Source of the DNA: Faecalibacterium sp. UBA1819
GTDB lineage: Bacteria > Bacillota > Clostridia > Oscillospirales > Ruminococcaceae
Direction: 5' to 3'
Assembly: GCA_002315015.1 (NCBI GenBank)
Contig: DCEX01000028.1
Location: forward strand, 1-47,795
DNA: 47,795 nt
Below, in pieces: positions 23,336 through 34,001 of this stretch. Made by a program: the position numbers and the translations under genes. The first letter of the stretch is position 1. Every line of letters begins with the position of its first letter. A model generated the notes under the pieces. The model made no database searches and was not told where the DNA came from. It worked only from the letters and a program-made list of their open reading frames with translations.

Positions 23336-24064
23336 ATGAACCGCGAAACGCTTGTCAACGGAACGGCGGTCTATTGCACCGATTCTTACCGGTTCGGGCA
23401 GGACGCTTTGCTGCTGGCCCATTTCAGCCGCGTGCGCACGAGAGAGGCGGCGGCCGACTTTGGGACAGGCTGCGGCGTGATTGCCCTATGGTGGCATGAC
23501 CGTGGGCACAAAGGCCCTTGCCTTGCGGTGGACTTGCAGGCCGAGGGGCTTGCGCTTTTACAGCGTGCGCTTGAGGAAAACGAACAGGCGGGCGCGCATA
23601 TTCACCCGCTTTGCGCCGACTTGCGCGGGTTTCCGCGCGACGCTTGGGCCGAGCAGTCGCTGGATGTCATTGCCTGCAACCCGCCGTATTTTTCGGGCGG
23701 TTATCTCAGCCCCAACCCGGCGCGGGCCGCTGCGCGCCACGAGCTGACTTGTACCACTGCCGATGTGTGCCGCGCGGCGTACCCGTTGCTGAAGGATGGC
23801 GGCAGGCTGTGCTTGTGCCAGCGCACCGAGCGTATGGCAGAGGTGCTTTCAGCCATGACGGCTGCGCGCATTGAGCCAAAGCGACTGCAAATGGTGGCGG
23901 CGCGCACAGAAAAAGCGCCGTGGCTGTTTTTGGTGGAAGGCCAGAAAAACAGAGCGCCCGGGCTGCGGGTGCTGCCCCAGCTGATTACACAAACCCCAGA
24001 TTTGCGCCCCAGCCCCGAAATATTACAGATTTACGGACAGACCCCGAAAGGAGAGCAGACATGA
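23336..24064 (+). CDS. trmN6: tRNA1(Val) adenine-37 N6-methyltransferase
   Basis: 242 residues. The N-terminus DSYRFGQDALLLAHF is the family signature. SAM motif I is DFGTGCGVIA (41-50) and the N6-adenine motif NPPY is at 115-118. Members methylate A37 of tRNA1(Val) in E. coli (YfiC); the B. subtilis counterpart is YabB in the same neighbourhood. RBS CAGGAGGAACCC defines ATG 23336. It overlaps rsmI by ATGA. Confidence 0.9.
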   Translation: MNRETLVNGTAVYCTDSYRFGQDALLLAHFSRVRTREAAADFGTGCGVIALWWHDRGHKGPCLAVDLQAEGLALLQRALEENEQAGAHIHPLCADLRGFPRDAWAEQSLDVIACNPPYFSGGYLSPNPARAAARHELTCTTADVCRAAYPLLKDGGRLCLCQRTERMAEVLSAMTAARIEPKRLQMVAARTEKAPWLFLVEGQKNRAPGLRVLPQLITQTPDLRPSPEILQIYGQTPKGEQT

Positions 24065-24906
24065 GCGGAACATTGTATATTGTGGCGACGCCCATCGGCA
24101 ATTTGTCCGACTTAACGCCCCGCGCCGCGCAGACTTTTGAACAGGTGGACTTTATTGCGGCGGAAGATACGCGCGTGACGTTGAAGCTGCTGAACCATCT
24201 GGGGATCAAAAAACCGATGGTAAGTTACTATGAGCATAATTTGAAAGAGCGCGGCGACCAGATTTTGGCGCGGATTGAAGCGGGAGAGTCGTGTGCGCTT
24301 TGCTCGGACGCGGGAATGCCGGCGGTGTCTGACCCCGGAGAACTGATTGTGAAGGATGCACACGCGAGGGGAATTCGTGTGGTGCCTGTTCCGGCGGCCA
24401 GCGCGGCGGTGACGGCGCTGTGCGTTTCGGGACAGGTGACGGGGCGCTGGGTGTTTGAAGGCTTTTTGCCCACCAATCGCCGCCAGAAAAAAGAGCGTTT
24501 GGATGCGCTGCAAAACGAAGAACGCACCGTGATTTTTTACGAAGCGCCCCACAAGCTGACGACAACGCTGGAGGATTTGGAAAAAGCGTTTGGGTCTGAC
24601 CGCTCTTTGACCATCTGCCGAGAGCTGACCAAGCTGCACGAGGAAGTGCGTGTGACAACCGTAGGACAGGCGAATGCCTATTATCGCGAAAACCCGCCGC
24701 GCGGGGAATTTGTGCTTGTCATGGCGGGGGCAGCACCAAAAGTGCCGGAGGAAATGACGCTTGAGGATGCCGTGGACTTTGCCTTGCAAAAGATGGAAGA
24801 AGGCATGAGTGCCACGGCTGCGGCCAAAGCGGCGGCTGCGGCTTCCCCGTTTTCTAAAAGCGAAATATATAAGGCGTGTATCGAGAAAGGGGGCGAACAC
24901 GAATGA
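24061..24906 (+). CDS. rsmI: 16S rRNA (cytidine-1402-2'-O)-methyltransferase
   Basis: 281 residues. It begins MSGTLYIVATPIGNLSDLTPRA, the hallmark of RsmI, followed by AAEDTRVTLKLLNHLGI, CSDAGMPAVSDPG and FEGFLPTNRRQKKERL. It methylates the ribose of C1402 in the ribosomal decoding site using SAM. Start overlaps trmN6 and its stop overlaps yfcE, giving a tightly coupled trio. Confidence 0.96.
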   Translation: MSGTLYIVATPIGNLSDLTPRAAQTFEQVDFIAAEDTRVTLKLLNHLGIKKPMVSYYEHNLKERGDQILARIEAGESCALCSDAGMPAVSDPGELIVKDAHARGIRVVPVPAASAAVTALCVSGQVTGRWVFEGFLPTNRRQKKERLDALQNEERTVIFYEAPHKLTTTLEDLEKAFGSDRSLTICRELTKLHEEVRVTTVGQANAYYRENPPRGEFVLVMAGAAPKVPEEMTLEDAVDFALQKMEEGMSATAAAKAAAAASPFSKSEIYKACIEKGGEHE

Positions 24907-25364
24907 AATGGCTGGTGCTTTCCGACAGCCACGGAATGCGTGGCAGTGTATACGACATACTGGACAGTCACCCCGATGCAGTGGGACTGTTTTTCTTGGG
25001 CGATGGCTTGGATGACGTGGAATATGTGCAGAATACCCATCCTCATTTACAACTGTATACTGTGAGCGGAAATTGCGACAGAACGCGAGGAACATTGGAA
25101 GGCGTTGCCGATTGCGGCGGCGTAAAAGTATTTTATACGCACGGACATCTTTATGGGGTGAAATCGGCTTTGGGGCCGCTGTGCAAACGCGCCAAGGAAG
25201 AAGGGGCGGCGGTGGCGCTGTACGGCCATACGCACAACCCGCTGTGCGGTACGCAGGACGGTGTGCTGCTGGCAAACCCCGGCGCCGTGAGCAGCTTTCC
25301 TTCCCGATACGGCATTTTAACCGTGGAAGACGGTGTGCCGTCCTTTCAGCTGAGAATGATATAA
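24903..25364 (+). CDS. YfcE/MJ0936-type metallophosphoesterase
   Basis: 153 residues, a minimal calcineurin-like fold. Metal ligands are in VLSDSHG (Asp8, His10), GDGLDD, SGNCDR, YTHGHLYG and YGHTHNP. Family members hydrolyse phosphodiesters with Mn2+ in vitro; the cellular substrate is unknown. ATGA overlap with rsmI. Confidence 0.93.
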   Translation: MKWLVLSDSHGMRGSVYDILDSHPDAVGLFFLGDGLDDVEYVQNTHPHLQLYTVSGNCDRTRGTLEGVADCGGVKVFYTHGHLYGVKSALGPLCKRAKEEGAAVALYGHTHNPLCGTQDGVLLANPGAVSSFPSRYGILTVEDGVPSFQLRMI

Positions 25365-25365
25365 A

Positions 25366-25400
25366 AAAAGCCAAAGCGGACTTTGTCCGCTTTGGCTTTT
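25366..25400 (+). terminator. Terminator of the trmN6-rsmI-yfcE unit
   Basis: Perfect 15-bp stem AAAAGCCAAAGCGGA/TCCGCTTTGGCTTTT with CTTTG loop, directly after the stop. Confidence 0.92.
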
Positions 25401-25416
25401 CGTTTGAAAAAGGGAA

Positions 25417-25446
25417 GTGCCCTTGTGTGATGAATCACAAGGGCAC
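25417..25446. other. Perfect hairpin between yfcE and the NERD gene
   Basis: GTGCCCTTGTG (25417-25427) and CACAAGGGCAC (25436-25446) enclose an 8-nt loop. There is no T-run on the plus strand. On the minus strand CCCTTTTTC follows, so it may end transcripts from the NERD gene, or it may belong to the small gene starting at 25481. Confidence 0.6.
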
Positions 25447-25480
25447 AAAAGGGGTATCTCTCTTGGTGTGAGGAGGAATC

Positions 25481-25576
25481 ATGTACAGAGCTCGGATTGC
25501 GGCTCCCGTTCTCTGTGCTACCTATTATATCTGTGAATTGAGAGAGGAGTTTTACGCTTTTATGAATAAAATGTAA
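25481..25576 (+). CDS. Candidate 31-residue small protein
   Basis: An ATG follows GAGGAGGAATC (AGGAGG with 4-nt spacing) and opens 31 codons to TAA. The product begins MYRARIAAPVLCATYYICEL and ends in a mixed-charge tail (REEFYAF). The middle is hydrophobic with two cysteines, but too short for a sure membrane helix. No promoter was found. It could be a real small gene or a chance RBS-ATG pair. Confidence 0.35.
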   Translation: MYRARIAAPVLCATYYICELREEFYAFMNKM

Positions 25577-25593
25577 AACCGAAGAAGGCGGGC

Positions 25594-26214
25594 TTAAACC
25601 CGCTCGGGAGCAGCCATACACGCACGCAGGGCTTGTTCGGCCTTGTCTAAATCGGTATGTTTATCGAGACGGTATTTGTCTTTTTCCAAAAGGGCGGCAA
25701 AAGTTTTGGGGGTATAATGCCCTGTGCTGCGCGGCACACCCAACACTGCTTTGGAATTAGTAAACACGCAAACGGTTTCCACCGGGATATTTTTCAGCTT
25801 GGCGGCAAACAGACAGTCGCGCACAACGCGCGTATCTGCCGCAGCACGAGTCATCGGGTTTTCAAACGAGGTGCGCACATCGTTTTTCACGCACACCCAT
25901 TCTTCATCTGAAGCGTTTCCGTAAATCTCACCCGCCATGCCGTTGCATTTCACACACAAAATGCCAAACGGGCCAAGCACTAAAAAGTCAAGGTCGGCAA
26001 AACGACCGTTTTTTGCCAAATGCACGTCTTTGATGACGCGGCAGCCGTTTTCCCCGGCAAAGCGGCGGGCGGCAGAAAGCGGCTTTGCTGCGCGGGCGGC
26101 AGGAGAAAGATCTTTTGCAGGGGAAGTTAGGCCGTGATCCCGCCGGTAAAGCCAAAGAATGGCCGCAGCACTGATTGCGACAATCACTAACGCAAAAATT
26201 GAAATAATATCCAA
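25594..26214 (-). CDS. NERD-like membrane protein with degenerate nuclease site
   Basis: 206 residues: an N-terminal membrane helix (about 3-22) and a NERD-type domain (about 50-150, GRFADLDFLVLGPFGILCVKCNGMAG split across the core). In typical NERD domains the core is ViEvKn. Here the Glu and Lys become Lys and Asn (LCVKCNG), so nuclease activity is unlikely. The start is TTG at 26214, with GGAGGGTTTTATT before it. An ATG at 26283 lies in the -35 element and is ruled out. Confidence 0.65.
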   Translation of the reverse strand: MDIISIFALVIVAISAAAILWLYRRDHGLTSPAKDLSPAARAAKPLSAARRFAGENGCRVIKDVHLAKNGRFADLDFLVLGPFGILCVKCNGMAGEIYGNASDEEWVCVKNDVRTSFENPMTRAAADTRVVRDCLFAAKLKNIPVETVCVFTNSKAVLGVPRSTGHYTPKTFAALLEKDKYRLDKHTDLDKAEQALRACMAAPERV

Positions 26215-26253
26215 AATAAAACCCTCCGTCCAGTTCGTTTCTCTTTTTACTTC

Positions 26254-26283
26254 AGTATAACATAAAGAAAAAAGCCTTGGCAA
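26254..26283 (-). promoter_or_regulatory. Promoter of the NERD-like gene
   Basis: On the minus strand TTGCCA (26278-26283), 18-nt spacer, TATACT (26254-26259) with extended TGT. Confidence 0.7.
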
Positions 26284-26325
26284 TGCACAGCAGCACAGGA
26301 AAAAAGAAAAAGATTAAAAAAAGGG

Positions 26326-26354
26326 TTGACATGGCTCGCATGACGTGATATTAT
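26326..26354 (+). promoter_or_regulatory. tRNA-Arg promoter
   Basis: Perfect TTGACA (26326-26331), 17-nt spacer, TATTAT (26349-26354). The same -35/-10 pair recurs at 47759-47787. Confidence 0.85.
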
Positions 26355-26389
26355 AATAAAGCACTCAGCGAGAGTGTGAAACAAAATAT

Positions 26390-26466
26390 GCGCTGGTAGC
26401 TCAGTTGGATAGAGTGTTTGGCTACGAACCAAAAGGTCAGGGGTTCGAATCCCTTCCAGCGCACCA
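26390..26466 (+). tRNA. tRNA-Arg (anticodon ACG)
   Basis: A 77-nt cloverleaf including encoded CCA. Acceptor is GCGCTGG/CCAGCGC. The anticodon stem TTTGG/CCAAA encloses CTACGAA, so the anticodon is ACG (read as ICG after deamination). T arm has TTCGAAT. Single tRNA with its own promoter and terminator. Confidence 0.98.
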
Positions 26467-26503
26467 AAAAGCTTCGCTTTGAAAAAGGCGAGGCTTTTTT
26501 GTT
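26467..26503 (+). terminator. tRNA-Arg terminator
   Basis: AAAAAGC-TCGC pairs imperfectly with GCGA-GCTTTTTT around a T/A-rich loop, directly after CCA. Confidence 0.75.
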
Positions 26504-26716
26504 TTCCAAAAGCATCTCGAAAGAAAAAATAGAAAAAAATAAAATTTTTTTCAAACACCTCTTTCATTTCAAAAAAAGTGTTGGATAACTGGCTACAAGA
26601 GCGGTTTCCGCACAAGGACGCCGGGAACGGCCGGGCGGAGATGCGATGGACATGCTTTTTCTAGGTATCTGTTACCGCGCGCGGAAAAAGGCATGGCCGG
26701 AACAAAACCGTTTGAA

Positions 26717-26773
26717 GCGGGTAAGGAAGCCCGCACAACAAACAATAGGGCGAAACGCCCAAAACTAAGGAGG
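26717..26773 (+). promoter_or_regulatory. Flagellin leader with CsrA-like hairpin and SD
   Basis: GCGGG (26717-26721) pairs with CCCGC (26730-26734), presenting AGGA in the loop. A second hairpin GGGCG-AAA-CGCCC (26748-26760) precedes the SD AAGGAGG (26767-26773). GGA in a hairpin loop plus a second GGA at the SD is the arrangement of CsrA sites in the B. subtilis hag leader. The upstream leader (26590-26716) is also GC-rich and structured. No sigma-28 promoter was found. Confidence 0.45.
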
Positions 26774-26781
26774 ATTTTATT

Positions 26782-28254
26782 ATGGGTATGGTAGTAAGAA
26801 CCAATACGATGGCGAACAACGCGTTCCGTCAGTTGGGCATGAACAACAATCAGGTTAGCAAGAGCTTGGAGAAATTGGCTTCCGGTTACCGCATCAACCG
26901 TGCTGGTGACGACGCAGCTGGTTTGGCCGTCAGCGAGAGCATGAAGGCTCAGATCACTGGTTTGGAAGCTGCTTCTTCCAACAGCCAGGACGCCATCTCT
27001 TTGGTACAGACCGCTGAGGGTGCTTTGACCGAAGTTCATGACATGCTGAACCGCATGGTTGAGCTGTCGACCAAAGCCGCTAACGGCACTTACACCGACG
27101 CACAGCGCCAGAACTATCAGGACGAGATCAAAGAGCTGAAGGACGAAATCGACCGTATCTCCAAGACCACTGAGTTCAACGGACAGAAGCTGCTGGACGG
27201 CAGCATGGGCAGCGCAGGCAATGGTATGCCCATTGCTGTTACGGATATTTCCGGCAGCACGAGCGGTGGCAACATTACCCTGACCGATGTTACAGAGGTG
27301 AAAACAGTTGCTTCCACCACCGGTTTGAACAATGTTGGCGCTACAAGCGGTGAGATGGGCAAAATTACCGTCACCTTTACTGACAGCAAGGGTAATGAGC
27401 AGACCGTTACCGTTGACTATCAGGTGGGTGCTAGCTCTGGTGACACCAAGACGAATATCATTCAGGCTTTGAACAACAACGAAACTCTGAAGGGATCCTT
27501 CACCGCATCTGTATCCGGTACAGAGTTGAAGTTTGAGGCAGCCGTTTCCGGTGCAGCCAGCAGCGTGACAAGCATCTCGATCAGCAATGATCAGGGCACG
27601 TCGACAGCTAAGGTTGAGACCGTTACCGAAGGTAAGGATGCTACGAAGTCCTTCGATCTCTCCGGTGGCTTCAAAGACGGAAACACCATTACGATTGATG
27701 GCAAGACCTACACTTATAAGGAAAAGGCTGACGGATCTGATGGTGAGACGTTTGGCGATATCGCTTCCTTGGTCATTGCTGCAAACAAAAACGGCGTTCA
27801 GCTGAATGTCGATAACCTCACCGCAGTTACCGCTACTAAGACTGGCGGCAGCGGCGACGGCCTGAGCTTCCAGGTTGGTGCAACAGCTGATGCTGACAAC
27901 GTTCTGACTCTGAATGTTGCTGACATGAGCGCAGGCGCTCTGGGCGTTGCTGATGTGGACGTTTCCAAGGTTTCCAGCGCACAGGCAGCGATCGACAAGA
28001 TCAACAATGCTATCGACACTGTTTCCAAGACTCGTTCCGGTTTGGGTGCTATGCAGAACCGTCTGGAGCACACCATCAACAACTTGGATACCACCGCAGA
28101 GAACCTGAGTGCTGCTAACAGCCGTATCCGCGATACCGATATGGCGAAAGAGATGATGCAGTACACTCAGATGAACGTTCTGGTTCAGAGCGCTCAGGCT
28201 ATGTTGGCTCAGGCCAATCAGCAGCCGCAGTCTGTGCTCCAGTTGCTGCAATAA
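26782..28254 (+). CDS. Flagellin
   Basis: 490 residues. The conserved D0/D1 N-terminus (VVRTNTMANNAFRQLG, LASGYRINRAGDDAAGLAVS) and C-terminus (RLEHTINNLDTTAENLSAAN, RIRDTDMAKEMMQYTQMNVL, ending VLQLLQ) form the filament core. The central 150-390 region is Thr/Ser/Gly-rich and variable, forming the exposed domain. Exported by the flagellar secretion system. Preferred codons indicate high expression. Strong SD AAGGAGG. No other flagellar gene is near, so it is an isolated filament gene. Confidence 0.97.
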   Translation: MGMVVRTNTMANNAFRQLGMNNNQVSKSLEKLASGYRINRAGDDAAGLAVSESMKAQITGLEAASSNSQDAISLVQTAEGALTEVHDMLNRMVELSTKAANGTYTDAQRQNYQDEIKELKDEIDRISKTTEFNGQKLLDGSMGSAGNGMPIAVTDISGSTSGGNITLTDVTEVKTVASTTGLNNVGATSGEMGKITVTFTDSKGNEQTVTVDYQVGASSGDTKTNIIQALNNNETLKGSFTASVSGTELKFEAAVSGAASSVTSISISNDQGTSTAKVETVTEGKDATKSFDLSGGFKDGNTITIDGKTYTYKEKADGSDGETFGDIASLVIAANKNGVQLNVDNLTAVTATKTGGSGDGLSFQVGATADADNVLTLNVADMSAGALGVADVDVSKVSSAQAAIDKINNAIDTVSKTRSGLGAMQNRLEHTINNLDTTAENLSAANSRIRDTDMAKEMMQYTQMNVLVQSAQAMLAQANQQPQSVLQLLQ

Positions 28255-28296
28255 TTTATTATTGCAAGCGCTTGGGCAAAGATTCTCTTTGCAAGC

Positions 28297-28329
28297 AAAA
28301 ACCACACCGCTTCGGCGGTGTGGTTTTTT
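28297..28329 (+). terminator. Flagellin terminator
   Basis: AAAACCACACCGC/GCGGTGTGGTTTT with a stable TTCG tetraloop and T tail. Confidence 0.95.
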
Positions 28330-28393
28330 GTTTAGGGGGGCTATTTTAAAACAGGGAGAAATTTAATTAAAAAATCGGTGAATTTTCGGATAG

Positions 28394-28493
28394 ATAAAAT
28401 TCTTTTTAACTCTAGAAAAAAGAAATAGATTATGTTATTCTATTTTTAGAAGGAATAAAATTCTCTTGACCAATAAAAAGCCTTTTATAAATG
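28394..28493 (+). promoter_or_regulatory. Promoter and repeat region of the GNAT-SecB-like locus
   Basis: Direct repeats ATAAAATTCT at 28394-28403 and 28455-28464, 61 bp apart; the second runs into TTGACC (28466-28471), the likely -35. Candidate -10 sequences are TATAAA (28486-28491, spacer 14) or TAAATG (28488-28493, spacer 16). Between the repeats are two inverted repeats (TTCTTTTT/AAAAAGAA and TTCTA/TAGAA). This repeat-rich arrangement is typical of autoregulated toxin-antitoxin promoters. Confidence 0.45.
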
Positions 28494-28524
28494 ATGTTAG
28501 AAAGAGCTAAAAGGTTGTGCGGCT

Positions 28525-29061
28525 ATGGGCACATTGCATATTTCAAAAATTACAACTTCTATTGAAGAAAATTTTTCTTGTGGGAACGACAGCATTGATG
28601 ACATGTTGAAGGATTCACTCTATTTAACGGCGCTTCGGCGCTGTTATGCTTATAAAATAACAGCGGATGGAGTTACTTTAGGTTATTATATGCTTGAGTT
28701 AAAAAGATTTCCGCTGAAGATATTCGACCCTCCTTTGGAGGATTACTCTGTGGGACATTATGAAGATATGTACGCGATGCATATCGAATATATTGCTATT
28801 AAAAAGAAATTCCAACGCCATAAAATAGGATCCGGCATACTGAAATATATCATTGCCACCATGCAGGACTTATCAATGGCGTGCCCTTTCCGGCTTTTAA
28901 CAGTGAACGCTCTGCAAGATTTAGCCCATTGGTATGAATCGTTTGGCTTTAAAGTGGTTCATAAATATGAGGACAAACAAAACCCTGAAACTGTTTTGAT
29001 GGTTCGGGATATGCTGACAACCGAAGAACTCGATGCGCTGGAGCAATTTTCAGAGGTTTAA
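28525..29061 (+). CDS. GNAT acetyltransferase, TacT/AtaT-like (toxin-like)
   Basis: 178 residues. The N-terminal EENFSCGNDSIDDMLKDSL and DGVTLGYYMLEL follow the FdCG..eLd..Lr ... vvGYYtLs layout of GNAT toxins such as TacT. The acetyl-CoA loop is Q97-R-H-K-I-G-S-G104, and Tyr137 (HWYESFGF) sits where TacT has its catalytic tyrosine. TacT/AtaT-type enzymes acetylate the amino group of charged tRNAs and stop translation. The usual RHH (DUF1778) antitoxin is absent. Instead a small protein and a SecB-like protein follow. Weak SD (AAAAGG, 10 nt). AT-rich compared with neighbours. An ordinary metabolic GNAT remains possible. Confidence 0.8.
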   Translation: MGTLHISKITTSIEENFSCGNDSIDDMLKDSLYLTALRRCYAYKITADGVTLGYYMLELKRFPLKIFDPPLEDYSVGHYEDMYAMHIEYIAIKKKFQRHKIGSGILKYIIATMQDLSMACPFRLLTVNALQDLAHWYESFGFKVVHKYEDKQNPETVLMVRDMLTTEELDALEQFSEV

Positions 29062-29081
29062 TAGAATCATTTATTTTGTAA

Positions 29082-29087
29082 TATAAT
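29082..29087 (+). promoter_or_regulatory. Possible internal -10 before the middle gene
   Basis: A perfect TATAAT lies 28 nt before the 104-residue gene, without a good -35. It could give extra transcripts of the second and third genes. Confidence 0.25.
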
Positions 29088-29114
29088 AATGATAAAAAGA
29101 ACGGGGGAAAAGTC

Positions 29115-29429
29115 ATGTTTGAGGAAACATATCAAATTTCCCGAGAGTTGACAGAGCAATTGCTGCATGAACTGTATCATCCTAACGTAAACGAAATTAA
29201 GCGTAATCATGAGATATTGGAAAAAGTGCGCCAAACAATGCATATCACAAGAGATGGTAACGGCGCCACGGTAGAATTTGATGATTTGGATTTATCTTTT
29301 TTAAATCAGCCCATGTATATTTCCGGCGATTTAGAGTGTCAGGAAAAGGATTTTGTTCAGCTTGACTGGACAAATGATGATAAGCATGCGCGATTTGTAT
29401 TAGGAAAAGGCTCATTTTCGGCGGCATAA
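29115..29429 (+). CDS. Small protein of unknown function, candidate antitoxin
   Basis: 104 residues. The N-terminal half is helical and charged (ISRELTEQLLHELYHPNVNE, EIKRNHEILEKVRQTM). The C-terminal half looks beta-rich (GNGATVEFDDLDLSFL, MYISGDLECQEKDFVQLDW). No helix-turn-helix or RHH motif is recognised. SD GGGGGA. It starts 53 nt after the GNAT gene and ends 18 nt before the SecB-like gene, so it is co-transcribed with the latter at least. Its position suggests it neutralises the GNAT with help from the chaperone; this is inference only. Confidence 0.7.
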   Translation: MFEETYQISRELTEQLLHELYHPNVNEIKRNHEILEKVRQTMHITRDGNGATVEFDDLDLSFLNQPMYISGDLECQEKDFVQLDWTNDDKHARFVLGKGSFSAA

Positions 29430-29447
29430 ATTTTGAGGAGAACGGCG

Positions 29448-29876
29448 ATGAACAATGTGCAGAATCAAGAGATAACTCCGATTCCGAGTTATTTTAATCT
29501 TCGGCCGGTTGTCTTTGACATGCTTTCTTTTGAAAGACACGGATTTCGCGGGGAAGCCAAGGAGATTAAAACGGAGTTTAGGCTTTCTTATGCCATCAAA
29601 AAAATAACGGATACGAATTATTGTGTGACGCTTCGTGCAACAGCGACTCGAAAAGAAGAGTACACTGCAACGGTTCAGATTAGCGGTTACTGTAATTTTG
29701 ACGAAGCTTTACCGAAAGAAGCGGATACGGAAACACTTTTAAAAGAAAATGCTTTGGCAATTTTATTTCCGTACATTCGCTCCCAAATGACACTGCTGAC
29801 CGCACAGCCGGAAGTTGAGCCGATTGTGTGGCCTGTGATGAATATTTTGGAGATGCTGAAAAAATCAGACGAGTAA
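29448..29876 (+). CDS. SecB-like chaperone
   Basis: 142 residues, the size of SecB. The strand YCVTLRATATRKEEYTATV matches the SecB sheet (YEVVLRVTVTA). The end, ILFPYIRSQMTLLTAQ (105-120) with PIVWPVMNILEML (125-137), matches the SecB helix and turn (ILFPYARE ... LAPVNF). Firmicutes generally lack export SecB; SecB-like proteins in Gram-positives are best known as chaperones that fold antitoxins in TAC modules (Rv1957 of M. tuberculosis). Start ATG 29448 follows GAGGAGAACGGCG. The strong triple hairpin after it closes the cassette. Confidence 0.85.
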   Translation: MNNVQNQEITPIPSYFNLRPVVFDMLSFERHGFRGEAKEIKTEFRLSYAIKKITDTNYCVTLRATATRKEEYTATVQISGYCNFDEALPKEADTETLLKENALAILFPYIRSQMTLLTAQPEVEPIVWPVMNILEMLKKSDE

Positions 29877-29893
29877 AAATGGGAAAAAGGTTT

Positions 29894-30003
29894 GGAAAAG
29901 GGGGCTGAGCCCTCTTTTCCATTTTAAACAGGGATTCAGTTTGTGAAAAAGCGAAGCTTTTTCTACAAACTGAGAAGGCACCAAAACGGTGCCTTCTTTT
30001 TTT
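29894..30003. terminator. Triple hairpin terminator region
   Basis: Three hairpins in series: 29894-29920 (GGAAAAG arms), 29937-29972 (CAGTTTGT-AAAAAGC with GAA loop) and 29975-29996 (GAAGGCACC/GGTGCCTTC) followed by seven or more T. The last also precedes the end of the converging ABC operon. Confidence 0.9.
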
Positions 30004-30028
30004 GTGCCTAGCAATTTCAAGCGCAAAT

Positions 30029-31024
30029 TTAAGAGTTGGATGCGGCTTTTTCTGCAAAGGTGTTATTCACGACGGCGTCGAACGCGGCGCGCTGGGAAAG
30101 TTCGCCTGCGCTTTCCATCACGGTTTGCAGACGGTCAAAGCTTTCCTTGCTCATTACCGGAGTTTCGCAATAGGCGCCGACTTTTTGATAATTTTCCACG
30201 GCGCTTGTGAGCAATTCCAAATCGGTGTCGGCAAAGTGCGGGGCAACCAGTTTTGCCACTTCCTCGGCAGAATGTGTTTTCACCCATGCTTCGCCCTTGG
30301 CAACGGCATTGGTAAAGCCTTGAATCAGCTCGGCATTTTCTTCCATATAACTGCTCTTGGCAAAGTATGCAGTGTAGGGCAAATCACCCACGGCATCGCC
30401 TACGGCGGCGACGATATAGCCCTTGCCCTCGGCTTGCAGACTGCTGGCTGCCGGTTCAAACACGGTGACATAGTCGGCGGTGCCGCCCAAGAATGCGCCT
30501 GTCATATTGTCAAACTGCACGGAGGTATCTAACAGCAAATCAGCGGCGGGGTCAAGGCCGTTTTCTTTCAGCGCATACTCAAACGCCATATAGGGCACGC
30601 CGCCCTTTCTTCCCGGCAGAATATGACTGCCTTTCAGCGACTGCCAAGTAAAGTCCGGCTGCTCGGTGCGGCCTACCAGCATACTGCCGTCGCGTTTCGT
30701 CAGTTGGGCAAATACCTGCGGGTAGTCGTCATTACCCTCATTATAGACATAGATACAAGCCTCCGGCCCTGCAAGGCCGATATCCATGCTGTCGGACAGC
30801 ACAGCGCTCATCACCTTATCAGCGCCGCCGCCGTTGGAAAGCTCGATTTCGATGCCTTCCTCCTCGAAGTAGCCCAGCTCCATGGCGGCATACTGCGGCG
30901 CGTAGAAGATGGAGTGTGTGACCTCGCATAAACGGACGGTTTGCAGATCGTTTTTGGAAGAACAGCCGGAAAGGGCAGCGGCGCACAGCGCCGCACCGAG
31001 AAAAAGGGAAAGAGCTTTTTTCAT
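30029..31024 (-). CDS. ABC transporter substrate-binding lipoprotein (NMT1/SsuA type)
   Basis: 331 residues. Lipobox LSGCSS (Cys20) anchors it outside the membrane. The fold opening VRLCEVTHSIFYAPQYAAMELGYFEEEGIEIE split over residues 29-60, with GPEACIYVYNEGNDD, is that of NMT1/THI5/SsuA-like binding proteins for small organic nutrients (aliphatic sulfonates, nitrate, pyrimidine precursors). The exact ligand is unknown. No TPP riboswitch lies upstream of the operon, which argues weakly against thiamine precursors. Start ATG 31024 with AAAGGAGAATTATT. Last gene of the operon. Confidence 0.9.
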   Translation of the reverse strand: MKKALSLFLGAALCAAALSGCSSKNDLQTVRLCEVTHSIFYAPQYAAMELGYFEEEGIEIELSNGGGADKVMSAVLSDSMDIGLAGPEACIYVYNEGNDDYPQVFAQLTKRDGSMLVGRTEQPDFTWQSLKGSHILPGRKGGVPYMAFEYALKENGLDPAADLLLDTSVQFDNMTGAFLGGTADYVTVFEPAASSLQAEGKGYIVAAVGDAVGDLPYTAYFAKSSYMEENAELIQGFTNAVAKGEAWVKTHSAEEVAKLVAPHFADTDLELLTSAVENYQKVGAYCETPVMSKESFDRLQTVMESAGELSQRAAFDAVVNNTFAEKAASNS

Positions 31025-31079
31025 AATAATTCTCCTTTGATGGGGGCGTTTCTTTTTAGGGGGAAACGCCCTTGAATTT

Positions 31080-31904
31080 TTAATGCGAAGCAGAGCCGTA
31101 GCGGCGGCGCACTGCTTTTTGCAGCAGGCTGACTGCCTGATACATCGCCGCGGCGACAACGGAAAGGACGAGAACGCCCGTCATCACAAGATCCATGCGG
31201 AACACCTGCCCGCCATAGACGATGAGATAGCCGAGCCCCGCTTTGCTGACGAGAAATTCCCCGGCGATAACACCGACGAGCGAAAGGCCGATATTGATTT
31301 TCAGCGAATTAAAGAGGGTATCTAAATTGGACGGAAAGACAATTTTGGTGAAAACCTGCTTTCTGGTTGCGCCGAATGTGCGCGCCATTTTGATGGATTC
31401 GGGGTCGGTGTGGACGAATCCCGCCAGCATTTCCAGCACAGTGACAATTAAGCTGATGGCAAGCGCCATAAAGATAATAGCGCCGGTACCTGCGCCTGCC
31501 ACGATGATGATGACGGGCCCGAGCGCGATTTTCGGCAAGCTGTTCAGCACAACAAGATACGGCTCGGCAACCCGTGCGATAAACGGCGACCACCACAGAA
31601 TGACAGCGACAAAAACACCGATGACGACACCCAGCAAAAAGCCGGTAAGCGTTTCGTAGACGGTGACGCCGATATGCAAAAGCAGCTTGTTTTCAGAAAA
31701 GCGGGTAAGTGTATGCCAGATGCGGCTGGGCTGACTGAGGATGAAGCTGTCGATGACACCAACCCGTGCAAGCACCTCCCACAGCACAAAAAAGGCAATG
31801 AGAAAGCCCAGCTGACAGGTAAGCACAAGGCGTTTTTGACGCCTTACCCTGTCGAGATAGGCTTGCCGCGCCTTGGAAACCGGCGCGGCTTCATGTGTGG
31901 TCAT
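31080..31904 (-). CDS. ABC transporter permease (SsuC/TauC type)
   Basis: 274 residues with about six membrane helices. The ATPase-coupling EAA loop reads ARTFGATRKQVFTKIVFPSN, with the following GLSLVGVIAGEFLVSKAGLG typical of nitrate/sulfonate/taurine importers. Overlaps the ATPase gene by 14 nt and is followed by the binding protein. Confidence 0.93.
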   Translation of the reverse strand: MTTHEAAPVSKARQAYLDRVRRQKRLVLTCQLGFLIAFFVLWEVLARVGVIDSFILSQPSRIWHTLTRFSENKLLLHIGVTVYETLTGFLLGVVIGVFVAVILWWSPFIARVAEPYLVVLNSLPKIALGPVIIIVAGAGTGAIIFMALAISLIVTVLEMLAGFVHTDPESIKMARTFGATRKQVFTKIVFPSNLDTLFNSLKINIGLSLVGVIAGEFLVSKAGLGYLIVYGGQVFRMDLVMTGVLVLSVVAAAMYQAVSLLQKAVRRRYGSASH

Positions 31905-32658
31905 CTTCTTTCAGCTCCTTCCAAAGGCGGTCAAAATACGGTGAGAAATTGGGATGGCTGCGTGCGGTAAGCGGGGTACGCTCCCGCCCGAAGTCGATGG
32001 GCAGAAGCTCTTTTACATGTGCCGGACGACCCGACAGCACCAGAATGCGGTCGCCCATGCTGATGCTTTCGGGGATGTCGTGCGTGACCATCAGCGTGGT
32101 GATTTTTTCACGCTTCAAAATGGAATAGACATCCTCGGTGACGCTCAGGCGCGTTTGATAGTCCAGCGCGGAAAACGCCTCGTCTAAAAGAAGAATTTCC
32201 GGCCCGGCGGCTAAAGTGCGGATGAGCGCGGCGCGCTGACGCATCCCGCCCGAAAGCTGGCGCGGGTATTTGTCGGCAAATTCCGCGAGGCCGTACGTTT
32301 CCAGCAGCCGGTCGGCACGCTCCACCGCACGCTCGGTTTTGGCGTGGCGGATTTCCAGCCCGAACAGGACATTGCTGCGAATGGTGCGCCACTCCAGCAG
32401 GTTGTCGCGCTGGAGCATATAGCCGATATGCCCGGAAACACCGTCCACGGGTTTTCCGTGCAGCAGCACCCTGCCCGTGCTGGGGCGAATCAGCCCGGCA
32501 ATGACGCTGAGCAAGGTGGACTTGCCGCATCCTGACGGCCCGACAATGCTGATCAGCTCGCCTTGCTCCACTGAAAAAGAAAGATGTTCAAACGCCGTCA
32601 CCTCACCATTTTGCGCTTGGTAGGTGTGGCTGACATCTTCAATGCGAAGAATTTCCAT
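31891..32658 (-). CDS. ABC transporter ATP-binding protein (SsuB/TauB type)
   Basis: 255 residues. Walker A is GPSGCGKST (40-48), Q loop YMLQRDNLLEW, signature LSGGMRQRAALIR, Walker B EILLLDEAFSALD, switch His in MVTHDIPESISMGDRILVLS. Powers the importer encoded downstream. ATG 32658 has GGAGGTATTGT before it; a longer frame to 33102 has no support. It is divergent from the DEAD-box gene. Confidence 0.95.
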   Translation of the reverse strand: MEILRIEDVSHTYQAQNGEVTAFEHLSFSVEQGELISIVGPSGCGKSTLLSVIAGLIRPSTGRVLLHGKPVDGVSGHIGYMLQRDNLLEWRTIRSNVLFGLEIRHAKTERAVERADRLLETYGLAEFADKYPRQLSGGMRQRAALIRTLAAGPEILLLDEAFSALDYQTRLSVTEDVYSILKREKITTLMVTHDIPESISMGDRILVLSGRPAHVKELLPIDFGRERTPLTARSHPNFSPYFDRLWKELKEDDHT

Positions 32659-32730
32659 ACAATACCTCCTTTCCGTTTCTTGATAGGATGAACGGGGAAA
32701 ACCCCTGCTTTTAGTAGATGCAAAAAAGGT

Positions 32731-32764
32731 TTTTTTGGTGCATTGCAGTTTTTTGGTGTATAAT
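32731..32764 (+). promoter_or_regulatory. DEAD-box gene promoter with direct repeat
   Basis: TTGGTG (32735-32740), 18-nt spacer, perfect TATAAT (32759-32764). TTTTTTGGTG occurs at 32731-32740 and again at 32749-32758, an 18-bp periodicity that overlaps both promoter elements. Confidence 0.55.
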
Positions 32765-32855
32765 AAAAAAGCAAATGAAAAAGAAACCCCTGAAAAAAGA
32801 ATGCGGCAAACGCCGCTTTGCTGAGGGGGAGACGGAAAGCATGAAGGAGAGTTCA

Positions 32856-34001
32856 ATGCGTTACGAGGAAATGAATTTACCCGAACCGCTGCGCCGTGCG
32901 GTGGAGCGAATGGGATTTGACGAAATGACACAGGTGCAGGAATTGGCGATTTCGCCGATGTGTGAGGGCTTCGATTTGATTGCGAAAGCGCCGACCGGAA
33001 CCGGAAAAACGTGTGCGTTCGGCATTCCTTTATTGATGGGGCTGGACGCAGAAAAAACACAGCCTCAGGCGGTAGTGCTTGCGCCCACGCGCGAACTGGC
33101 ACAGCAGATTGCCGCCGAGCTGCGGGAGCTGGCGCACTTTATGCCCGCCGTGCGCATTGCGTGTTTATACGGCGGCGGAGACATGCGCCGTCAAACAGAG
33201 CGATTAAAAAAAGGCGTACAGCTGGTAGTGGCAACGCCCGGCCGTTTGATGGACCACATCAAGCGCGGCAATCTGCGCACAGACGCCGTGACGGACGTAG
33301 TGCTGGACGAAGCCGACGAAATGCTGAACATGGGCTTTTATAAAGACGTGGTGAAAATTTTGGACACGCTGAAAGCGCGCCGCCGTTTGGCGATGTTTTC
33401 CGCCACCATCAGCCGCGAGGTGATGGACATTGGCTGGCTGTACCAGCGCGACGCTAAAGAAATCACCGTGCAGGCCCAGGCGCAGTCTGCCCCGCAGATT
33501 ACGCAATACCGCATTTTGACCACAGGGCGAAACAAGCTGCCCGATGTGACGGCGATTTTGTCGCAAAAGGAGCGGCGGCGCGTGATGATTTTCTGCAACA
33601 CGAAATACACCAGCGAAATGGTGGCGGGACAGCTGGCGGATTTGGGCTATGCGGCGGCTTGCTTAAACGGCGACATGGCACAAGGTGAGCGAAACCGCGT
33701 GATGAATGCGTTCCGCGAGGGCGGCGTGAAAATTTTGGCGGCGACCGACGTGGCGGCGCGCGGCATTGACGTTGCCGAAGTGGACGCTGTCATCAACTAT
33801 GACGTGCCGACGTCCAACGAATATTACACCCACCGCATTGGACGCACGGGGCGTGCAAGACGGGTGGGAGAATCCTTTTTGTTATACATGAATGAGGAGC
33901 GTTTGCGCGTGCGTGATATGCTGCGGTACACCAAAAGCACCGCCACAGAAATGACCGTGACGGCAGACGGCGAACTGGTAACAGTGGAGGGACAGGCGTG
34001 A
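32856..34001 (+). CDS. DEAD-box RNA helicase, minimal core
   Basis: 381 residues, the two RecA-like domains without a C-terminal RNA-binding extension. Q motif FDEMTQVQ (21-28), motif I APTGTGKT (45-52), Ia APTRELAQQ, DEAD box LDEADEML, SAT FSATIS, then IFCNTKY, ATDVAARGIDV and HRIGRTGRAR. Unwinds RNA duplexes with ATP. ATG 32856 has AAGGAGAGTTCA before it; an in-frame ATG 15 nt earlier is possible. The stop overlaps the next gene's GTG (GTGA). Confidence 0.95.
   Translation: MRYEEMNLPEPLRRAVERMGFDEMTQVQELAISPMCEGFDLIAKAPTGTGKTCAFGIPLLMGLDAEKTQPQAVVLAPTRELAQQIAAELRELAHFMPAVRIACLYGGGDMRRQTERLKKGVQLVVATPGRLMDHIKRGNLRTDAVTDVVLDEADEMLNMGFYKDVVKILDTLKARRRLAMFSATISREVMDIGWLYQRDAKEITVQAQAQSAPQITQYRILTTGRNKLPDVTAILSQKERRRVMIFCNTKYTSEMVAGQLADLGYAAACLNGDMAQGERNRVMNAFREGGVKILAATDVAARGIDVAEVDAVINYDVPTSNEYYTHRIGRTGRARRVGESFLLYMNEERLRVRDMLRYTKSTATEMTVTADGELVTVEGQA

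Follow-up and report, generated by a model that had tools for sequence, protein, structure and literature searches.

A candidate toxin-antitoxin-chaperone operon with a GNAT acetyltransferase in Faecalibacterium sp. UBA1819

Introduction

Can an acetyltransferase of the GNAT family occupy the toxin position of a tripartite toxin-antitoxin-chaperone (TAC) operon? The question is raised by a cassette of three genes on contig DCEX01000028.1 of Faecalibacterium sp. UBA1819 (assembly GCA_002315015.1). The whole stretch of DNA that we analysed, 47,795 nucleotides long, is called the window hereafter. An original prediction had seen in this cassette a TacT-like GNAT, an unrecognised protein of 104 residues and a SecB-like chaperone. 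It also considered that TAC toxins are RNases, which the ADP-ribosyltransferase of CmdTAC contradicts. In the abstracts and passages of the literature that we consulted, TAC toxins are RNases plus one mRNA ADP-ribosyltransferase, and GNAT toxins are paired with ribbon-helix-helix (RHH) antitoxins. From the sequence comparisons reported here, the cassette is very likely a TAC operon with a GNAT toxin. A GNAT-TAC would be a combination of known parts for which we met no earlier description.

Results

The GNAT toxin candidate

The window holds three co-directional open reading frames (ORFs) in a row, and the ORF list, Pfam and PADLOC bear out the announced succession of GNAT, 104-residue (middle) protein and SecB-like protein. 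Three Pfam GNAT models exceed their cut-off for the first protein (PF13508, E-value 9.6e-7). The motifs that had been described are all in its sequence: Cys19-Gly20, the loop QRHKIGSG at residues 97-104 and Tyr137. This tyrosine and the IG of the loop are also invariant in the GNAT of locus L018, which lies in another family (see below).

We then searched the solved structures with a profile built from the window GNAT and four close relatives together with the GNAT of L018. The best matches were 6ajn, 6gts and 6ajm, which we take to be AtaT (2.6e-6), followed by 7f37, 9ilr, 6gtq, 7chd, 6gtp and 5zgn between 8e-6 and 9.1e-5, the latter value being that of 5zgn, named KacT. A KacT-like entry, 5xun, came at 0.0004, three designed knot proteins at 0.0004-0.0014 with no passing stretch, and other GNATs at 0.004 or more (2ae6, 0.004; 2gan, 0.009). 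By profile, the window GNAT is nearest to the AtaT/KacT toxins. Toxins of this type acetylate aminoacyl-tRNA, and we rather favour the amino group of aminoacyl-tRNA as the target here, judging from this resemblance. The window GNAT gave no match to PD-T4-9_A, the ADP-ribosyltransferase toxin CmdT that is expected of a CmdTAC system. Its predicted structure (alignment A3, 6 rows) was too poor for use, with a mean predicted local distance difference test (pLDDT) score of 38.9.

Recurrence of the gene order

The original prediction had suggested looking for conserved synteny, and the same gene order was found at two other loci. At L018 (genome G013, from another family), a GNAT is followed by a 136-residue protein and a SecB-like protein; this GNAT is 33% identical to that of the window (pairwise BLAST, 4.7e-29). 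At L025 (G897, another genus of the family of G013), found in the GNAT search of 250 genomes, a GNAT truncated at the start of the contig precedes a 136-residue protein and a SecB-like protein. These two loci represent two genera of family f14, within the order of the window, and the GNATs are 27-33% identical. A protein found together with the L018 and L025 middle proteins, P0023, is annotated as coming from an Oscillospiraceae bacterium.

The module is rare. At 1e-8, the GNAT profile had matches in 3 of the 391 class genomes searched (G000, G013 and G720); at 1e-6, it had matches in 2 of 250 in the family of G013 (G013 and G897) and in 1 of 88 in the family of the window (G000). A GNAT found mostly alone had been named as an outcome that would speak against the module; instead, an adjacent SecB-like gene was seen in three of the four genomes with a GNAT-profile match. 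Within the genus, one genome out of 11, that of the window, has the chaperone, and the same holds for the GNAT. In the order, 13 of 394 genomes gave a match to the SecB-like profile PDLC04072, L018 being among the loci obtained in this way. No match was found for the window GNAT among plasmids and phages, nor for the window SecB-like protein among plasmids. One GNAT match in a viral contig (L022) was rejected, as the GNAT-domain stretch lies within a larger, unrelated protein.

The SecB-like chaperone and the exchange of parts

The third protein had been called a clear SecB-like chaperone, and the profiles agree. It scores just under the curated cut-off of Pfam SecB (4.2e-5; 23.9 of 26 bits), and matches the PADLOC model PD-T4-9_C (CmdC) at 1.8e-14, better than it does export-type SecB models. 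PD-T4-9 corresponds to CmdTAC, according to passages of PMC9519451. The corresponding proteins at L018 and L025 also match PD-T4-9_C (3e-6 and 0.0015, respectively).

In a tree of 26 SecB sequences, the chaperone of the window falls with those of L005, where the toxin candidate is an unrecognised 148-residue protein, and L006 (support 100/97), while L018 pairs with L025 (100/96). A single clade for the three GNAT-module chaperones was rejected by the approximately unbiased test (p-AU 0.0021), for a group that was defined by toxin type and tested once the tree had been seen, and in the presence of long branches. The toxin labels of the tree other than GNAT were assigned by eye, except that of L006, whose toxin matches PD-T4-9_A (3.6e-8) and, below the cut-off, Pfam PARP (0.0014). 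The window and L006 chaperones are 41% identical. Because of this grouping, one GNAT and one ADP-ribosyltransferase-like protein appear to be served by related chaperones, and, to judge by the tree, GNATs are served by two chaperone lineages. Parts were probably reshuffled between modules, given that no single clade unites the chaperones of the three GNAT loci. Other toxins stand in the same toxin/antitoxin/chaperone frame: those of L006, L072 and L077 match PD-T4-9_A, and those of L030-L036 and L076 are alike by eye. Relatives of the window chaperone lie behind ADP-ribosyltransferase-like proteins on viral contigs and in an unverified faecal phage record.

Several SecB-like loci were noted in passing. 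TAC-like operons with an ADP-ribosyltransferase occur at L072, L073 and L076 (contigs classed as viral; faecal phage record MT837118), the toxin being identified by PD-T4-9_A in L072 and by eye in L073 and L076, and the antitoxin of L073 being ambiguous. At L005 (G046:C40, 324-1908), proteins of 148 and 236 residues, the second ending in MGIAA, precede a SecB-like gene whose product is 44% identical to that of the window; neither protein has a Pfam match at E 10, and from its sequence L005 is possibly another new class of TAC toxin. At L046 and L047 (G1377 and G1126; SecB-like gene near 1500), a divergent SecB-like gene is overlapped by the frame of a 333-residue protein with the ending SSSSAAA, and a 267-residue protein comes next; the arrangement is unfamiliar. 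At L029 (G1213:C31, 2-1079), at a contig start, a tryptophan-synthase-like frame ending in ELA is directly followed by a SecB-like stretch akin to that of the window; this may be a module remnant. Finally, L008-L014 and L017 hold a SecB-like family in the same taxonomic order with no toxin or small protein seen adjacent, and the seven included in the tree form their own branch.

A C-terminal alanine signature before SecB-like genes

The middle proteins of the three GNAT loci all end in a small residue plus alanine (SAA, SA and CA), and show no mutual BLAST similarity at E 10. We examined this feature in the ORFs lying just before SecB-like genes. Fifteen of 19 independent groups end in alanine, against 16 of 227 background ORFs (Fisher test, 2.5e-12), and 10 of the 19 end in Ala-Ala, against 1 of 227 (5.3e-12). 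For lone SecB-like genes, none of five upstream ORFs ends in alanine (L010-L013 and L017), or one of six if L029 is counted.

The SecB-like matches correspond to 39 distinct places (14, plus 24 new ones, plus L025). Of these, 26 have such an upstream protein, reduced to 19 groups by merging L034/L035/L038/L040, L046/L047 and L048-L051. The count excludes L008-L014, L016 and L017 (nine lone, false or contig-start cases), L045 (a SecB-like stretch within a 404-residue frame), L029, and L037 and L043 (broken SecB frame). The rows not ending in alanine are L033, L041, L044 and L053, together with L038, which ends in AT but whose group counts as a hit. The upstream ORF of each place was chosen by position, L015 being included from the locus view and the longer of two candidates being taken for L006; the 333-residue ORF of L046/L047 is counted, though it is possibly not an antitoxin. 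The background ORFs were taken mechanically (at least 150 residues, non-overlapping) and some may be false. Outside this count, five of seven viral, plasmid and phage loci end in alanine (L072, L074, L076, L077 and L079; not L073 and L075).

Such an ending is known from TAC antitoxins. The last Val-Ala of HigA1 is recognised by ClpX, as stated in passages of PMC8165232. CmdA carries the LAA ending seen in other TAC antitoxins and undergoes ClpP-dependent degradation unless held by CmdC (passages of PMC11618068), and chaperone addiction is conferred by the antitoxin tail (passages of PMC5105189). A C-terminal small residue plus alanine is the ClpX-type signal of HigA1 and CmdA, and by analogy the end of the window protein can be read in the same way. 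On sequence grounds, the present count extends this signature to GNAT modules.

The middle protein as antitoxin candidate

The middle protein was described as unrecognised, and it is: no match was found in Pfam, NCBIfam, PADLOC and PHROGs to E 1, nor in Pfam to E 10. The absence of an RHH antitoxin is likewise upheld, as neither a Pfam match for the middle protein nor a TacA1 match anywhere in the genome was detected. Relatives were not found in the genome contigs and viral contigs searched, the PDB gave nothing credible, and among the 394 genomes of the order only its own gave a credible match (G210 reached 0.008, inside a 480-codon frame). The L018 middle family has no member in viral contigs.

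Over six full-length relatives, mean identity is 84% for residues 1-60 and 68% for residues 61-104, residues 71-80 being the least conserved. The protein ends in SFSAA. Conservation among close relatives is seen for both the window and the L018 middle protein, and in both a more variable stretch precedes a conserved end. The predicted structure (alignment A1, 13 rows; mean pLDDT 45.9) was too poor for use; helices placed at residues 10-20 and 25-41 by this low-confidence model lend weak support.

We also asked whether the middle protein could be a TacA-type antitoxin minus its RHH domain, using 11 TacA1/DUF1778 plasmid proteins. An ungapped position-specific scoring matrix of the toxin-binding C-terminal segment of TacA (400 shuffles each) gave p 0.78 for the window protein, 0.097 for L025 and 0.022 for L018, the last one being located at residues 57-65. 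In profile-profile comparisons, 150 nulls were made by column shuffling. All of them scored below the pooled alignment A5 and also below the L018 family, at another segment in the latter case; 37 equalled or exceeded the window family. Descent from a TacA-type RHH antitoxin is kept as a lead only.

Points against a GNAT-TAC and alternative explanations

Several results weigh against the TAC reading or the aminoacyl-tRNA target. The original prediction of a TacT-like GNAT is supported for its toxin type (AtaT and KacT entries) and less so for TacT itself: 5fvj, 7ak7 and 7ak8, presumably of the TacT kind, reached only 0.028-0.1 with the profile, no better than generic GNATs. Moreover, with the single GNAT sequence, N-alpha-acetyltransferase 60 came first (0.014), just ahead of 6gts (0.019). 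This would suit a TAC of the same architecture whose GNAT acetylates a protein or another target rather than aminoacyl-tRNA. We consider it unlikely, as the profile gives 2.6e-6 for the entries taken as AtaT and at least 0.18 for protein N-terminal acetyltransferases, and as the N-terminal F-x-C-G segment aligns with the former.

The middle protein shows no sequence link to any antitoxin. In addition, its close relatives P0007 and P0010-P0012 share the N-terminal half, and their tail is short or wholly different and lacks Ala-Ala; these four may be decayed copies, or versions that do without a chaperone. The L018 GNAT has relatives on two plasmids, one of Paenibacillus and one of Vibrio, and in a Latilactobacillus phage. 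No SecB was seen in the stretch examined around these relatives; a small ORF lies upstream of them, the reverse of the order in the window, and that of the Vibrio plasmid is, judged by its relatives, a DUF1778-type RHH antitoxin. A fourth relative is in a Halobacterium record. The 3.5 kb examined for the G720 GNAT hold no SecB-like gene. The tail-less metagenomic relatives and the plasmid and phage GNATs seen without SecB are what would be expected of a two-gene GNAT toxin-antitoxin pair with the adjacent SecB-like gene as a bystander. Such an explanation seems improbable, because three diverged loci, representing two chaperone lineages, all have the SecB-like gene in third place, the middle proteins bear the C-terminal signature of chaperone-dependent antitoxins, and the gene order is reversed relative to the two-gene pairs.

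Finally, the GNAT modules amount to three loci, one truncated and two in one family. The GNAT family is huge and the direct Pfam matches are generic, as they would be for a metabolic or resistance GNAT that happens to lie beside a SecB-type chaperone and belongs to no toxin module. We give this very little credit: the genes are rare and patchy (1 of 11 genus genomes, 3 of 391 of the class), of low GC and with fast-diverging partners, and the SecB-like protein is closer to PD-T4-9_C, a TAC family, than to the SecB models of the export type.

DNA context of the cassette

The features of the cassette and its surroundings are listed in Table 1. The cassette is AT-rich, as had been noted, with 34-42% GC per 500-base window against mostly 48-61% in the flanks (24000-34000), where GC dips to 43-47% around the tRNA, near 26000-26750. 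The announced upstream direct repeats are also present: ATAAAATTCT occurs twice in the whole window, against 0.07 expected. Sigma-70-like promoter matches in the region (7 vs. 4.5 in shuffles, standard deviation 2.2) are not clearly above chance. A triple terminator had been proposed after the cassette. The three hairpins are there; only one, at 29972-29998, has a terminator-like score, and the scan of 28200-30100 gave no excess over shuffles (2 sites vs. 1.7). G400, a member of the genus, has the ABC-transporter genes that neighbour the cassette in the window but not the cassette itself, and the adjoining gene differs and is not flagellin; no clean empty site was found in this comparison, which covered G400 alone among the 10 further genomes available for the genus.

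Table 1. Positions of the cassette, its parts and its neighbours in the window
Feature	Position	Strand	Basis or remark
GNAT acetyltransferase, proposed toxin	28525-29061	+	178 residues; ORF list, Pfam, structure-profile search
Acetyl-CoA-binding loop QRHKIGSG, GNAT residues 97-104	28813-28836	+	Sequence, alignment; role from family knowledge
Tyr137 of GNAT, candidate catalytic residue	28933-28935	+	Invariant in alignments; role by analogy with TacT/AtaT
Middle protein, proposed chaperone-dependent antitoxin	29115-29429	+	104 residues; no known family
Middle protein residues 1-60, better conserved, proposed toxin-binding part	29115-29294	+	Identity among relatives
Middle protein tail, residues 61-104, ending Ser-Ala-Ala, proposed chaperone-addiction region	29295-29426	+	Chaperone binding inferred
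SecB-like chaperone, CmdC-related	29448-29876	+	142 residues; profiles, tree; start taken as ATG 29448, TTG 29433 of the ORF list being less likely
Two direct copies of ATAAAATTCT, possible operator	28394-28403, 28455-28464	.	61 bases apart; putative function
Sigma-70-like promoter match TTGACC-18-AATGAT	28466-28495	+	Promoter scan
Three hairpins after the cassette	29893-29921, 29936-29973, 29965-30005	+	Hairpin scan
tRNA-Arg (ACG)	26390-26466		Upstream of the flagellin gene
Flagellin gene, 5' neighbour of the cassette	26782-28254	+	Named by sequence inspection
Substrate-binding-protein-like gene, its 3' end bordering the cassette	30029-31159	-	Named by sequence inspection

Discussion

Protein families, gene order, recurrence, C-terminal signature and unusual composition are what we observe at this locus. 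In the mechanism that we propose, the GNAT would acetylate the amino group of aminoacyl-tRNA and halt translation. The middle protein would bind the GNAT through its better conserved N-terminal part and silence it, while its tail would depend on binding by the SecB-like chaperone; SecB-like chaperones of such operons protect their cognate antitoxin. Without the chaperone, the C-terminal Ser-Ala-Ala would be exposed to ClpX and the antitoxin degraded. A cue drawing the chaperone away, be it a phage capsid or stress, would then free the GNAT to block translation. In CmdTAC, the cue is reportedly newly made phage capsid protein. By analogy, there is about an even chance that the module serves phage defence. 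The more specific proposal, a TAC that would sense phages through capture of its SecB-like chaperone and respond by aminoacyl-tRNA acetylation, combining by part exchange the sensing half of CmdTAC with a GNAT, is tentative and somewhat less probable.

If a GNAT-TAC is confirmed, it would join TAC and GNAT toxins and place chaperone addiction on an unrelated toxin class. It would also mean that an antitoxin can be chaperone-addicted even when it has no known DNA-binding domain, and would point to a chaperone sensor compatible with interchangeable killing enzymes. Should the module sense phages, TAC would amount to a general sensor frame in which translation-blocking enzymes are interchangeable. 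The three diverged loci are directly testable material.

No GNAT-TAC was found in the titles, abstract openings and main-text passages that we consulted in the open-access literature on TAC, SecB-like chaperones and GNAT toxins. In the main texts of PMC11618068, PMC5105189, PMC6377645 and PMC9519451, neither GNAT nor acetyltransferase appears, and PMC9098466 mentions GNAT only as an RHH-GNAT pair.

Comparison with known systems

The cassette shares its tripartite order with the HigBA-SecB TAC of M. tuberculosis, as well as a C-terminal ClpX signal (Val-Ala in HigA1; passages of PMC8165232) and, as proposed for the window, a tail that is needed for the chaperone (passages of PMC5105189). HigBA-SecB has an RNase toxin and a helix-turn-helix antitoxin, whereas the window has an acetyltransferase and no recognisable DNA-binding domain in its middle protein.

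With AtaRT, KacAT and TacAT, the likeness lies in the active-site features and in the toxin family, which the profile places with the AtaT and KacT entries. In the plasmid examples that we examined, an RHH antitoxin precedes the toxin; in the window, the toxin comes first, there is no RHH and a SecB-like gene is third. The toxins of the MqsRA and HicAB TAC systems are RNases, and their antitoxins have known folds, unlike the middle protein. They resemble the cassette by a chaperone-dependent antitoxin and a SecB-like partner, following passages of PMC5105189 and PMC9519451.

Finally, CmdTAC (PD-T4-9) of E. coli ECOR22 shows the same order of toxin, antitoxin and SecB-like chaperone, and the window chaperone falls in the CmdC family. 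Both antitoxins are of unrecognised family, with a C-terminal Ala-Ala and two N-terminal helices, which come from a low-confidence model for the window protein and from the passages describing it for CmdA. The window antitoxin was set beside CmdA by this description. The two systems differ in their toxin, CmdT being an mRNA ADP-ribosyltransferase and that of the window a GNAT.

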